Source: Aliarcobacter cryaerophilus ATCC 43158
GTDB taxonomy: Bacteria; Campylobacterota; Campylobacteria; Campylobacterales; Arcobacteraceae
Reading direction: 5' to 3'
Assembly: GCF_003660105.1 (NCBI RefSeq)
Contig: NZ_CP032823.1
Coordinates: forward strand, 1,674,001 to 1,738,000
Length of the DNA: 64,000 bases
The translations under genes were made by a program, and so were the position numbers. Of this stretch, positions 27,468-31,784 are shown one piece after another. Under the pieces are notes generated by a model. It searched no databases, was not told the origin of the DNA, and saw only the letters and a list, made by a program, of their open reading frames with translations. Each line of letters starts with the position of its first letter. The first letter of the stretch is position 1.

Positions 27468-27513
27468 TCCAGTCCATTTTAAGTGAAAGCTTAAAAAGGT
27501 TCTTAAATTTTGT

Positions 27514-27600
27514 GCGAGTGTGGCGGAATAGGTAGACGCGCGGGACTTAAAATCCCGTTCCGGTTTCGGAGTGTGAGTTCGATTCTCACCATTCGCACCA
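27514..27600 (+). tRNA. tRNA-Leu (anticodon UAA)
   Basis: 87 nt with a long variable arm. Acceptor GCGAGTG pairs with CATTCGC; the anticodon stem CGGGA/TCCCG encloses loop CTTAAAA, anticodon TAA; T-loop GTTCGATTC; CCA is encoded. First of three tRNAs in one operon. Confidence 0.97.
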
Positions 27601-27609
27601 TTAAGTTGT

Positions 27610-27698
27610 AGAGGATTGACAGAGTTGGTCGATTGTACCGGTTTTGAAAACCGGCGAGGTGAAAGCCTCCGAGGGTTCGAATCCCTTGTCCTCTGCCA
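27610..27698 (+). tRNA. tRNA-Ser (anticodon UGA)
   Basis: 89 nt, class II with a long variable arm. Acceptor AGAGGAT pairs with GTCCTCT (one T-G pair); anticodon stem CCGGT/ACCGG with loop TTTGAAA, anticodon TGA; T-arm GAGGGTTCGAATCCCTT; discriminator G and encoded CCA. Confidence 0.96.
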
Positions 27699-27743
27699 CT
27701 CTTTTTATAAAAGTAAATACACAAAAATATTATAATTTTTTTT

Positions 27744-27819
27744 GGAGCTATAGCAAAGCTGGTAATGCCTCGGATTGCAAATCCGACATGCGTTGGTTCG
27801 AGTCCGACTAGCTCCTCCA
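27744..27819 (+). tRNA. tRNA-Cys (anticodon GCA)
   Basis: 76 nt. Acceptor GGAGCTA pairs with TAGCTCC; anticodon stem TCGGA/TCCGA with loop TTGCAAA, anticodon GCA; T-loop GGTTCGAGTCC; discriminator T (U73, an identity element of tRNA-Cys) and encoded CCA. Confidence 0.97.
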
Positions 27820-27861
27820 TTTCCAATTTCCACATATCATAATTTATATATTGTTAGTAAA

Positions 27862-27980: not shown

Positions 27981-28262
27981 ATGAAAAAAGTATTATTATC
28001 ATTAGCAGCAGCATCTCTACTATTTGTAGGTTGTACAGAAGATAAAAAACCAGCTGAAACAAAAGTTGAAGCTCCTAAAACTGAAGTTATAGCACCTGCA
28101 CAAGAGAAAAAAGAAGAAGTAGCTGCACCAAAAGAAGAAACAAAAGAAACAGTAGCTAATACTGGAGAAAAAGAAGTAAAAGCTACAGAAGAAGATAAAA
28201 AAGAAGAAGCTGAAGTAAAAGAAGAAACAAAAGAAACAGCACCTGAAGCTGACAAAAAATAA
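27981..28262 (+). CDS. Small lipoprotein with Lys/Glu-rich tail
   Basis: 93 residues. Signal peptide MKKVLLSLAAASLLFVGC with lipobox FVGC (cysteine 18), then a wholly hydrophilic tail built of Lys, Glu, Ala, Thr and Pro with repeated KEE, KET and APK elements and no predicted fold. It could be a flexible envelope spacer. It has its own ribosome site (AAAAGG) and is followed by a strong hairpin. Long antisense frames over it are artefacts of its biased codons. Function unknown. Confidence 0.8.
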   Translation: MKKVLLSLAAASLLFVGCTEDKKPAETKVEAPKTEVIAPAQEKKEEVAAPKEETKETVANTGEKEVKATEEDKKEEAEVKEETKETAPEADKK

Positions 28263-28271
28263 TAATAAACA

Positions 28272-28301
28272 TATAAATCCGTGTAAAATCACGGATTTAT
28301 A
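28272..28301. terminator. Strong hairpin between convergent genes
   Basis: A 12-bp stem (TATAAATCCGTG with CACGGATTTATA) and a 6-nt loop TAAAAT. It follows the lipoprotein gene by 10 nt and its far arm overlaps the end of the convergent membrane-protein gene at 28297, so it probably ends both transcripts. No long T run follows on the plus strand; on the minus strand the arm is preceded by one. Confidence 0.7.
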
Positions 28302-29262
28302 AAAAAACTCCATTTACTATATAATATTTTAAAACAAAAAAACTTACCAAAAAAACAAAAATAGTTGTAAAAAGTAAAGATAGCTTATAAAACTTATAAA
28401 TATATGTACTATTAATCCTAGAAAAGATTACTAAACAAATAGAGAAAAAAAGTCCTAAGAAAAGTGATGACCATATAAAATATCCAATAAAATAGTACTC
28501 AGATTGAAGCATACAAAATGGACATTGATGTGTTGGAAGTTCATAAATATAAGTTGAAAAAAAGTAAGTTACACAAAAATAAGATATATAAACAAACAAG
28601 ATATTAAATAAAAGAAGTAAAATATATTTTTTTTGAATATTTAAAATAACAATCAAAACAAAAAGCATATAAAATATAAGTATTAAGCTTGAATTAACTA
28701 ATCCAAAAGGTATTTTACTAGATATACTACTTGTTTCAAAGATAATTGAACAGCACTCAACTGCTTCGTTTAATGGAATATTTGATAAAAATTGTAAATC
28801 CAAAATATACTCAAAAGTAAGACAAAAAAATATAAAAATAAAAAGTAGTAATTTTATTTTTGTATATTGATAATCTTTTCGCTTTAAATCCAAAGAGTTC
28901 AAAATAAACCAAGCACCAATAAAAAATAGATTTATAAGCTTTAAAAAAAGAGAGATTTCACCATATTCTAAAGAAAAAATACCAGCTGCACACATTGCAC
29001 CTGCTACAAAATGAGATAAATTATCAATAGAAAATATAAAATAAAAGAATAATAAGATTTTTATAAAAAGAGAAAAACTAATGATTAAAATCACTAAATA
29101 TGATCTTTTTTCAAGTTTGTACTGCAAAATTGTACTTTGTTTAAAATCCCAATTTTTTAAAATAGTTATTGAATATATAAAAGATATTAGTAAAAGAATA
29201 TAAATAGTAGTTTGTAAAAATAGAAAAATTAATAACTCATTTGATAAAAAAATACTACTCAA
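28297..29262 (-). CDS. Polytopic membrane protein with three cysteine motifs, function unknown
   Basis: 321 residues with roughly eight membrane helices. Three motifs stand out: GAMCAAG (C91), VECCSIIF (C170, C171) and PTHQCPFCMLQ (H245, C247, C250), the last just before a helix at the membrane surface. Together they could bind a metal or form a redox disulphide. I recall similar motifs in unannotated membrane proteins beside ABC transporters in other bacteria but cannot name a family. The start is TTG at 29262, with GGAG 6 nt before it inside the ATPase gene (8-nt overlap), so it is translationally coupled to the transporter. Confidence 0.75.
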   Translation of the reverse strand: MSSIFLSNELLIFLFLQTTIYILLLISFIYSITILKNWDFKQSTILQYKLEKRSYLVILIISFSLFIKILLFFYFIFSIDNLSHFVAGAMCAAGIFSLEYGEISLFLKLINLFFIGAWFILNSLDLKRKDYQYTKIKLLLFIFIFFCLTFEYILDLQFLSNIPLNEAVECCSIIFETSSISSKIPFGLVNSSLILIFYMLFVLIVILNIQKKYILLLLFNILFVYISYFCVTYFFSTYIYELPTHQCPFCMLQSEYYFIGYFIWSSLFLGLFFSICLVIFSRINSTYIYKFYKLSLLFTTIFVFLVSFFVLKYYIVNGVFL

Positions 29263-29926
29263 TTAAAACTCCATTTTTTAACTCAAAAAATTTATCTACA
29301 AAATCTAGCTCAAAAAATATTGGATCATGAGTTGCTACAACTATAGTTTTTCCAGCTTTTTTTAACTCTTTTAAACTTTCTATAAAATTTAAAGAGTTTT
29401 CAAAATCAAGGGAAGATGTTGGTTCATCACATAAGATAGCGTCTGCTTTATTTACCAATGCTCTTGCGATAGCACACCTTTGTTTTTCTCCTCCTGAAAG
29501 ATTTGAAACTATCTCATCTTTTTTATGTAAAATATTTGACAAAATTAGTGTTTCTTCAACTTTTTTATTAATCTCTTTTTGTGAAAATCCTAAAGGAATA
29601 AGAGGAAAACTAACATTTTCAAAAACAGTTAAGTCTTCAAAAAGATTAAAAGATTGAAATATATAACCAATATTCTTTGCTCTAACATTGCTAGCATGAA
29701 TATCTGGATATTTTGATACTGATTCATTTTCAAAAAGAATTTCACCCAAACTAGGTTTTGAAATAGTAGCAATTATAGATAGAAGTGTTGATTTTCCGCT
29801 TCCACTTACTCCTTTAAATATAACAAATGAACCTTTTTTTATCTCAAAATTTATACTTTTTAGAGCATAAAACTCTTTTTTACTACCTTCAAAATATATT
29901 TTACTTATATTTTTTGCTACTATCAT
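29255..29926 (-). CDS. ABC transporter ATP-binding protein (LolD/MacB type)
   Basis: 223 residues. Walker A FKGVSGSGKSTLL (about residues 38-50), Q-loop YIFQSFNLFEDLTVFENV, signature NLSGGEKQRCAIARAL and Walker B DAILCDEPTSSLD with H-loop VATHD. The FxxF/LT sequence after the Q-loop is typical of the LolD/MacB/FtsE class that works with FtsX-fold permeases. Its ATGA start overlaps the permease stop by 4 nt, so the permease at 29923-31080 is its partner. Substrate unknown. Confidence 0.93.
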   Translation of the reverse strand: MIVAKNISKIYFEGSKKEFYALKSINFEIKKGSFVIFKGVSGSGKSTLLSIIATISKPSLGEILFENESVSKYPDIHASNVRAKNIGYIFQSFNLFEDLTVFENVSFPLIPLGFSQKEINKKVEETLILSNILHKKDEIVSNLSGGEKQRCAIARALVNKADAILCDEPTSSLDFENSLNFIESLKELKKAGKTIVVATHDPIFFELDFVDKFFELKNGVLIE

Positions 29927-31080
29927 CTTAAACTTTCATATGGATTTATTGCTGAAATTTTCCAAACTGGAATTAAAACTGAACTTAAAAATAAAACTAT
30001 AAAAAATAAAAAAAGTGTTACAAAAGTAGAAAATTCAATATATGGATAGAGTATAAAATCATTTTTTATATTTGAAAAATCTATAAATATATTTTTTAAT
30101 ATTGGAGCATTCAAAGCAAATACAAAAAAATATGCCAATAAAACTCCAAAAAGGTAAGATACAAAAGCTACAATAAAATTTTCGCTCATTTTTATTTTTA
30201 TGATATCTTGAACGCTATATCCAATTGCTTTAAAAATAGCTATTTGTTTTCTCTCGTTTATACTTACTTGAGAATATCTTTGATATAAAATCATTATAAA
30301 TGCAAATAAAACCACCAAATAAAGTATCAAAAAAACTCCACCTTTATAGTTAAAGATTGTCTCATATTCCTTTAAAATATCTTCTTTTTGAATAATATTT
30401 AAGTCTAAATCCAATCTTTGAAGTTTTTGTTTTATATTTGCTCTTTCAAGTTCATTTGGAACATCAAAAGCAATATTAGTAGAAAAATTTTTGTTTATAC
30501 CCAAAATATCTCTAGCAAGATTTATGTCCAAAATAATAATATCACTTGATATAATGTTTGATTCTTTTTCTAAGACTTTTAATATTTTTACTCTTTTTAC
30601 ATCTTTATTTGGAAATAAAAAATCATAATAGTCTTTATATTGATACTTTTTTAGTAAATTAGCTACTTCAAAACCTATAATCATCTCATCTTTTGATATA
30701 TTTTCAATACCCAAATTTTTCAATTCTTTATTTATATTTGAAAAATCAACTCCAACAATAGTAAAATAAACATCTTCACTCAAAAATTTATATCTTCCAT
30801 AAACTCTTTTTGTGATATTTTGAACTCCATAAATAGTTCTTATTTTATCTTCTACTTGATTATCTATATCAAAAATTCTTCCTCCAAACTCTTTTTGGAT
30901 TATAAAATCATTATGATTTTTTAGAGTTTTTAAAATCTCATTTTGCAAAGAAGATTTGATAAAAATAACTGTTGATAGTAAAAATATTGTTAAAGTTGAT
31001 AATATAAAAACAGCTATATATTTTATTTTTTGCTTATGAAGCAATAAAAAAATAAGATTTATAAAAACACTAATCTTCAT
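29923..31080 (-). CDS. FtsX/MacB-type ABC permease
   Basis: 385 residues from the ATG at 31080. One N-terminal helix (about 20-42), a large extracytoplasmic domain of about 200 residues, then three helices near residues 250, 310 and 355: the FtsX-fold topology of MacB-like mechanotransmission permeases. The cytoplasmic loop YSQVSINERKQIAIFKAIGYS is the usual coupling region and PVWKISAINPYESLR the usual C-terminus. ATG 31080 has TTTGGA 8 nt before it and overlaps the upstream small gene by 11 nt; a longer ATG at 31092 lacks a site. Confidence 0.88.
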   Translation of the reverse strand: MKISVFINLIFLLLHKQKIKYIAVFILSTLTIFLLSTVIFIKSSLQNEILKTLKNHNDFIIQKEFGGRIFDIDNQVEDKIRTIYGVQNITKRVYGRYKFLSEDVYFTIVGVDFSNINKELKNLGIENISKDEMIIGFEVANLLKKYQYKDYYDFLFPNKDVKRVKILKVLEKESNIISSDIIILDINLARDILGINKNFSTNIAFDVPNELERANIKQKLQRLDLDLNIIQKEDILKEYETIFNYKGGVFLILYLVVLFAFIMILYQRYSQVSINERKQIAIFKAIGYSVQDIIKIKMSENFIVAFVSYLFGVLLAYFFVFALNAPILKNIFIDFSNIKNDFILYPYIEFSTFVTLFLFFIVLFLSSVLIPVWKISAINPYESLR

Positions 31081-31294
31081 AAATAAATCCAAAATTACTT
31101 ATTTTTGGGTTCAAATAAATCATATTATTAAAACTATTTTCATAATCTTTAAATCTATAATTATAGTTTGAGTATGAAAGATTTGACAATTTTGTAATAG
31201 CTAAAATATCATAATTTATATTATTTTTATAAAAAGTATTTGAATACAAAAATAAAAAGAATAAAATAAATGTTATAAAAAATATAGTTATCAA
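31070..31294 (-). CDS. Small membrane-anchored protein heading the ABC cassette
   Basis: 74 residues from a TTG at 31294: one hydrophobic helix at the extreme N-terminus, then a polar, Asn/Tyr-rich extracytoplasmic tail ending FGFIYED. No family recognised. No ribosome site suits the TTG, but AGGAG at 31329-31325 lies 6 nt before an in-frame ATT at 31318, just after an in-frame stop; starting there adds MTTLSKVY, a normal charged lead-in to the helix. First gene of a four-gene overlapping cassette, so it may be a periplasmic partner of the permease. Confidence 0.65.
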   Translation of the reverse strand: MITIFFITFILFFLFLYSNTFYKNNINYDILAITKLSNLSYSNYNYRFKDYENSFNNMIYLNPKISNFGFIYED

Positions 31295-31382
31295 ATAGAC
31301 TTTGCTTAGTGTTGTAATGCCCTACTCCTCGTGCTGATAGAATATTCTACCAATTTTAAGTTAAATATCTGTTAATAATAGA

Positions 31383-31412: not shown

Positions 31413-31784
31413 ATGGCAAACAAAAATCAAATTGATGAATTAAAAGCAATATTACTTGAAAGAAGAGAGACAATTTTAAGTAATGTTAGAAATAGTAGAG
31501 ATAGTATTGACCAACTAAAAGATCAAGATTTAAATGATGATTTAGATTATGCTGATTTTGTTAGTGACTCATTTAAAGAGGGAATGATTGCAAATCATCA
31601 ACTAGATGAGTTAAATCAAATTGAAGAAGCTTTAAAAAAGATAAAAGCTCTTACTTACGGGATTTGTGATATGTGTGGAATAAATATTCCAATTGGAAGA
31701 TTAAAAGCAAAACCTTTTGCAAAATTTTGTACAGAGTGCAGAACAGTATATGAGCAAGAACAACAAAAAAGAGTAGCATATTGA
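31413..31784 (+). CDS. dksA: DksA/TraR-family zinc-finger transcription factor
   Basis: 123 residues. An N-terminal coiled coil (about 5-75) with DLDYADFVSD at its tip, then a C4 zinc finger CDMCG...CTEC (about residues 88-112). DksA binds the secondary channel of RNA polymerase and acts with ppGpp. The tip DxxDxA acidic residues (DDLDYAD) are kept. It overlaps truD by 4 nt. Slightly shorter than E. coli DksA (151), as usual for Campylobacterota. Confidence 0.92.
   Translation: MANKNQIDELKAILLERRETILSNVRNSRDSIDQLKDQDLNDDLDYADFVSDSFKEGMIANHQLDELNQIEEALKKIKALTYGICDMCGINIPIGRLKAKPFAKFCTECRTVYEQEQQKRVAY

Follow-up and report, generated by a model that had tools for sequence, protein, structure and literature searches.

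What does an FtsX-type ATP-binding cassette (ABC) transporter do when it is encoded together with a multi-helix cysteine protein of no named family? The question is raised by four overlapping minus-strand genes in a stretch of 64,000 nucleotides from Aliarcobacter cryaerophilus ATCC 43158 (contig NZ_CP032823.1, positions 1,674,001 to 1,738,000; the whole stretch is called the window below), which encode a small one-helix protein, an FtsX-type permease, a LolD/FtsE/MacB-type ATPase and an eight-helix protein with invariant cysteines. An earlier note, made from the letters of the window, had singled out this cassette as a candidate new system with a possible copper, haem or disulphide role. Here, profile searches, structure prediction and gene-order comparison were used to examine the cassette in Campylobacterales. 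It shares nearly all of its genomes with the Cu(I) chaperone NosL, and we lean towards the view that it makes up the membrane-bound core of a reusable module which works with NosL to insert a metal, presumably copper, into periplasmic copper enzymes in this order. In addition, the small gene appears to start with AUU, AUC or AUA instead of AUG in Arcobacter-type copies.

Distribution of the cassette and its link to NosL

The four genes were recovered as the earlier note had read them, with overlaps of 11, 4 and 8 nucleotides (Table 1), the first of which joins the stop of the small gene to the start of the permease gene. Their linkage is also conserved: the gene order is kept across 86 oriented loci (some genomes were entered twice), in which the ATPase gene is adjacent to that of the cysteine protein in 83 and the permease gene in 82, and a small frame was present in 80 of the 82 permease-bearing loci, with none in L081 and L086. 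Some of the loci in this count, as in the alignment and tree of the cysteine protein below, belong to the same genome or to near-identical genomes. In 44 of 71 loci, the retrieved stretch also codes for a NosL-type protein with a CxxCxM-like motif, whose gene is often the one immediately upstream of that for the small protein; downstream of the cysteine protein, an additional protein (cluster c4) is often encoded. The two downstream c4 proteins that were examined had no Pfam family; the c4 profile also matches NosL (7e-12), and 31 of 48 c4 proteins contain the CxxCxM motif.

The cysteine protein was found in 119 of 248 Campylobacterales genomes (including G189, whose match is a weak fragment). 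When the phylum was sampled with 298 genomes, 106 contained it, and the matches all fall within one order. Beyond the phylum, a contig scan with a single-sequence query gave 30 loci, which belonged to Campylobacterota wherever a lineage was named, and no plasmid match. NosL (PF05573), present in 145 of the same 248 genomes, was found in 117 of the 119 genomes with the cysteine protein versus 28 of the 129 without it (Fisher test, 2e-40), and NosZ, the nitrous oxide reductase, in 77 of 119 versus 25 of 129 (p 4e-13); relatedness was not removed, so both values overstate independence. NosZ is carried by 23 of the 28 genomes that have NosL and lack the cysteine protein. The NosZ count leaves out six weak matches that cover the C-terminal part only, with a best E above 1e-20 (G002, G078, G091, G169, G191, G223).

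The same partnership was observed within the genus of the window, where 24 of 31 genomes contain the cysteine protein: NosL is present in 24 of 24 genomes with it versus 2 of 7 without it (p 1e-4), while COX2 matches taken as NosZ (frames of 773-898 residues) occur in 8 of 24 versus 1 of 7 (p 0.64). In this genus, module presence tracks NosL, not NosZ-like matches. The window genome (G000) has a sole NosL match (E 3.2e-31), which is unlinked to the cassette (L102:7790-8305). Strong NosL matches (E <= 3e-28) without the cysteine protein were seen in G043, G024 and G121, the latter two being incomplete assemblies (88% and 65%).

Module copies in clusters for sulfite and nitrous oxide reduction

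Some copies of the module are embedded in clusters for known periplasmic enzymes. MccA, the octahaem haem-copper sulfite reductase, of a 64-100% identity class was found in 21 of 248 genomes, all 21 of which contain the cysteine protein, within 21 kb of MccA in 20. In 12 of 12 high-identity MccA loci that were read, the gene order is regulator, kinase, MccA, B, C, D, CcsBA, Sel1, NosL, small protein, permease, ATPase and cysteine protein, where B to D stand for MccB, MccC and MccD; in the automatic gene calls, the regulator was absent from L122, the B frame from L110, and the small gene from L119 and L125, in which it was found separately. The MccA proteins of these loci carry seven CXXCH motifs plus CX15CH, and 11 mcc copies of the module form a single clade in a quick tree (Shimodaira-Hasegawa-like approximate likelihood ratio test, SH-aLRT, 100). 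The module is contained in the mcc cluster of a Wolinella-like genome, and its genes may therefore already carry mcc names in the literature. It resembles the mcc cluster of Wolinella succinogenes in that the module follows CcsBA, Sel1 and NosL, whereas the copy in the window is solitary, its genome gave no MccA match, and it belongs to an Arcobacter-type group whose loci have no NosL beside the module.

Among 138 copies of the cysteine protein, NosZ lies within 21 kb of 25, MccA of 19 and both of one; fragment rows of the cysteine protein in G107, G163 and G189, together with several partial NosZ rows, were left out of this count. A "five-gene insertion" of unnamed open reading frames in the nos cluster of Sulfurospirillum, for which the portion of the report available to us proposes no function (PMC4794192), has the gene order found between the nosL-like and nosY-like genes in L069. 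In the literature searched, outside which the primary mcc papers lie, the cassette was met only in the form of these unnamed frames, with no description of module function or of the start codon treated below. The earlier note's view that no system of this composition had been described needs some correction: the composition is wider in the loci with a linked NosL-type protein, and the module is already in print as the Sulfurospirillum insertion. The type of the ABC engine and the chaperone are known; the family of the cysteine protein is new, and the start is unusual.

Two further arrangements were recorded. A second MccA-like class (47-50% identical), followed by a hexahaem protein (L154:9145-16561, L157:9322-16842, L158:9238-13405), occurs in genomes with no module and no NosL; for the hexahaem protein of L154, cytochrome b and rhodanese matches were noted, and the L154 and L157 loci contain a thioredoxin-like gene and a long CcsBA-like gene. 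In addition, the Wolinella-like genome G323 has a second, strongly diverged module copy next to a gene for a SLAC1-type channel (L111:9828-13921), with no NosL called nearby.

Proposed role of the module and competing explanations

The permease contains an FtsX-like domain (52.1 bits against a cut-off of 25.5), and the best 25 of 200 NCBIfam matches of the ATPase all remain under their curated cut-offs, the LolD, FtsE and MacB equivalogs not being reached among those. The small protein gave only insignificant matches in Pfam and NCBIfam. In an alignment of 74 permease copies, no column exceeds 40% cysteine, and the top histidine column holds 47 of 74 residues, with tyrosine in the window copy. 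Since there is no conserved cysteine and no near-invariant histidine, the force transmission that the earlier note had put forward suits this permease better than the passage of a metal; the small protein may be its mechanical partner, as suggested in that note. By family, the permease and ATPase would also fit a LolCDE- or MacB-like exporter whose cargo, taken from the inner membrane, would be a peptide, NosL or the small protein, and a simple lipobox pattern was found in 10 of 48 c4 proteins; however, among the 60 proteins of NosL cluster c3, which is linked to the module, just 2 show this pattern, the N-terminus of NosL in the window genome reads as an ordinary signal peptide, and an exporter leaves the cysteine protein unexplained, which makes this option quite improbable.

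The cysteine protein gave no Pfam or NCBIfam family at E <= 10 and an empty PDB sequence search, and no member of a 65-sequence alignment of its family has a convincing Pfam match, so that neither it nor the small protein could be placed in a named family. Its AlphaFold2 model (mean predicted local distance difference test, pLDDT, 90.7) has eight long helices, in agreement with the earlier reading, and the motifs GAMCAAG, VECCSIIF and PTHQCPFC are all present. In 88 copies aligned over at least 280 residues, Q47, K108, W118, Y238, Y240 and P243 are kept without exception, as are the five cysteines and the histidine listed in Table 1. The cysteines sit in the loops preceding helices 3, 5 and 7, in which the mean numbers of lysine and arginine are low (0.7, 1.4 and 1.1), as opposed to 3.7 (loop 1-2), 4.2 (3-4) and 3.4 (7-8) in the alternate loops, the short loop 5-6 having only 1.3; by the positive-inside rule, all five cysteines are predicted to lie on the periplasmic side.

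Five invariant cysteines, including a CPxC and a CC motif, are also what would be expected of a quinone-linked thiol oxidoreductase like DsbB or VKOR, in which CPFC at a helix start and the vicinal CC would exchange disulfides and keep cysteines of NosL or of the client in the right state, with the ABC pair gating access. Two of the 65 family members match VKOR weakly (residues 176-253 and 178-254, E 0.002 and 0.0085; best score 18.7 bits against a cut-off of 27.5), and this span includes CPFC, which keeps a thiol-redox role alive; classical DsbA and DsbB are moreover reported in a review to be missing from the Arcobacter genomes that it analysed (PMC4460558). The other 63 members, however, gave no VKOR match up to E 1, and no PDB fold match at E <= 0.001 was obtained for the whole model or for its C-terminal half (pLDDT 86), although fold identity to VKOR/DsbB may still hold. 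The structure-comparison (VIA) rows reach Z 12.4 for the whole model and 8.8 for the C-terminal half, a range called possible chance for helical bundles, and VKOR/DsbB is absent among the rows listed. Together with the strong tie to NosL, these results make an oxidoreductase of this kind unlikely.

NosL binds Cu(I) and contributes to assembly of the CuZ site, and MccA is counted among the cuproenzymes (PMC7558416); the repeated pairing of the module with NosL therefore suggests delivery of copper or redox control of a copper site. The metal or thiol role suggested in the earlier note is likewise plausible because the cassette co-occurs with this Cu(I) chaperone and some copies lie in mcc and nos clusters, and its interpretation as a whole is partly supported. 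From these sequence data we infer copper binding or transport by the module. NosL would carry Cu(I) to the eight-helix protein, whose cysteine cluster could hold the ion, or keep thiols or copper reduced; the ATPase and the FtsX permease, with the small protein, would then use ATP to reshape the periplasmic assembly, and copper would be released into the client.

Several observations weigh against a copper-insertion role. G021 and G117 carry the cysteine protein without a NosL match, 32 of the 119 genomes with it carry neither NosZ nor MccA, and 93 of the 138 copies lie near neither enzyme (many of them on short contigs). In the window genome, no NosZ (TIGR04246), MccA (E <= 1e-30), COX2-type or multicopper-oxidase match was obtained; the client search in its genus gave a multicopper oxidase in 4 of 31 genomes and COX2 in 9 of 31 (7 over cut-off). 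The CPxCGM motif is present in only 34 of the 60 proteins of NosL cluster c3. Seven genomes with a 47-50% identical MccA carry neither the module nor NosL; one of these proteins (L153) was discounted, a neighbouring hexahaem protein having been picked instead, and the six that were read all keep two extra cysteines. The module is therefore not needed for every MccA, and the strict MccA copper hypothesis was rejected on these six proteins. The extra cysteines of the Wolinella-like MccA are 96 residues apart, as is the copper-binding cysteine pair of MccA.

The two known clients, MccA and NosZ, belong to the c-type cytochromes as well, and the module might serve haem in place of copper by helping to attach or deliver it to them. 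In favour of this, a CcsBA haem lyase is encoded in 12 of 12 mcc loci that were read, some of which also have a HemJ-like gene; against it stand the tie to NosL in 117 of 119 genomes and the second MccA class: MccA of the 47-50% class has a CcsBA-like gene nearby in L154 (by Pfam) and L157 (by look), with none seen in L158, and no module. We regard a haem role as rather improbable.

The copper-insertion module preferred here shares parts of its organization with two further known systems. Like the NosL/NosDFY machinery of nitrous oxide reductase, it combines an ABC transporter with the Cu(I) chaperone NosL, presumably for a periplasmic cuproenzyme, and some of its copies lie in or near nos clusters; it differs by an FtsX-type permease in place of NosY, the lack of NosD and the extra eight-helix cysteine protein, and 42 of the 119 genomes with that protein lack NosZ. 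The P19/Ftr metal transport loci of Campylobacter (L148, L149) similarly contain FtsX permeases, an ATPase, a polytopic membrane protein with a cysteine cluster and a periplasmic metal protein, but they encode a pair of FtsX permeases together with P19 and an FTR1-like protein (labels other than P19 were assigned by look). Membership in P19/Ftr was rejected: the window genome has no P19 match, and the profile of the cysteine protein finds nothing in the P19-locus proteins up to E 10. P19 (PF10634) was found in 25 of 248 genomes, which overlap those with the module (e.g. G010 and G171), and therefore neither replaces the other.

The route of copper to enzymes of the periplasm is only partly understood; among these are haem-copper sulfite reductase and nitrous oxide reductase, the latter a sink for a greenhouse gas. 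A module found repeatedly with NosL, in the clusters of more than one enzyme, offers a concrete candidate for deletion in a laboratory organism, Wolinella succinogenes.

Start codon of the small gene and features of the locus

In the window, the frame of the small gene contains an ATT codon behind a Shine-Dalgarno sequence (Table 1), with an in-frame TAG (31324-31322) two codons upstream of it; the end coordinate 31318 given in the earlier note falls on this ATT. The first canonical codon, a TTG at 31294, lies eight codons into the frame, at the membrane helix, and was chosen by a canonical-start open reading frame finder. Starts were surveyed in 37 loci, one per genome, with canonical codons also allowed. 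In 33 loci, ATT (20), ATC (11) or ATA (2), together ATH, occupies the position at the expected Shine-Dalgarno distance, and none of the 33 has ATG, GTG or TTG there; this start type was found in 24 of 24 copies from the window genus. The Shine-Dalgarno sequence is AGGAG in 31 of the 33 (29 at 6 nucleotides, two at 5) and AAGGAA or AAGGAT in L049 and L079, with the AGG positions kept in 30-33 of the 33 aligned loci. Exceptions are L061, L063 and L098, with ATG near the N-terminus and no Shine-Dalgarno sequence found, and L048, without a clear site; most of the other loci listed have ATG, GTG or TTG at or near the N-terminus.

The peptide is conserved from the ATH codon on (ITTLSK and variants), whereas the codon immediately before it varies, being a stop in three loci, and in-frame stops occur 0-18 codons upstream. 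Mismatch rates by codon position in 67 pairs of related copies were 0.193/0.131/0.303 inside the frame versus 0.382/0.316/0.285 upstream, i.e., codon periodicity is seen inside the frame and not upstream of ATH. That the gene starts at another TTG or ATG, or goes untranslated, is very improbable: the TTG selected in the window, and a TTG in frame 12 codons upstream of ATT in L175, would allow the former, but 15 of the 33 loci have no in-frame ATG, GTG or TTG before codon 40, the Shine-Dalgarno sequence stands at a near-fixed distance from ATH in all 33, and the mismatch pattern begins with the frame. The small gene thus appears to start with a conserved AUU, AUC or AUA codon in Arcobacter-type copies.

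Genes known to begin with AUU or AUA are infC, pcnB, cvfC1 and ccpN. In Staphylococcus aureus reporters, such starts yielded about 10% of the output of AUG, with ccpN reaching up to 30% in rich medium (PMC13009471, PMC9410913). The present case resembles infC, Escherichia coli pcnB and S. aureus cvfC1 and ccpN in the combination of a strong Shine-Dalgarno sequence with a non-AUG start; cvfC1, too, is small and opens an operon, and its AUU is conserved among staphylococci (PMC13009471). It differs in gene and phylum and in the use of AUC in 11 of 33 loci, and it is known here from sequence. The literature searched on AUU-type starts contained no case from this phylum. If true, this start would provide a clear and conserved example of non-AUG initiation, in which gene callers restricted to ATG, GTG and TTG truncate or miss the small gene.

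Such a start could limit synthesis of the first subunit and perhaps, through the gene overlap, which suggests translational coupling of the small gene to the permease gene, of the whole unit. A more far-reaching proposal, which we offer tentatively and hold to be less probable than its opposite, is a general, so far unrecognised copper-insertion machine driven by FtsX mechanotransmission, with the eight-helix proteins as a new Cu(I)/thiol relay family, reused for the reductases of sulfite and nitrous oxide and for a third client, and throttled in Arcobacter relatives by the conserved AUU/AUC start, which possibly senses initiation factor 3 (IF3).

Table 1. Features of the cassette, in window coordinates
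Feature	Position	Strand	Basis or remark
Shine-Dalgarno sequence AGGAG	31325..31329	-	6 nt before the ATT start
Small one-helix protein, 82 residues	31070..31318	-	proposed start ATT 31318-31316; sequence and cross-locus comparison
FtsX-type ABC permease	29923..31080	-	start ATG 31080; PF02687, E 8.6e-14
LolD/FtsE/MacB-type ATPase	29255..29926	-	PF00005 (ABC_tran), E 6.2e-33
Eight-helix cysteine protein, 321 residues	28297..29262	-	C91, C170, C171, C247, C250 and H245 invariant
Terminator-like hairpin at the end of the unit	28272..28301	-	1 found versus 0.5 expected in shuffles; weak alone

A divergent gene (31413-31784, plus strand) lies upstream of the cassette. On its other side, a small lipoprotein-like gene rich in lysine and glutamate (27981-28262, plus strand) is convergent with it, and a family of small frames (cluster c17) is found at the equivalent position in several loci of Aliarcobacter. 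Genes for three tRNAs (Leu, Ser and Cys) are located at 27514-27819 on the plus strand, beneath a minus-strand open reading frame (27503-27835) that is therefore probably spurious.

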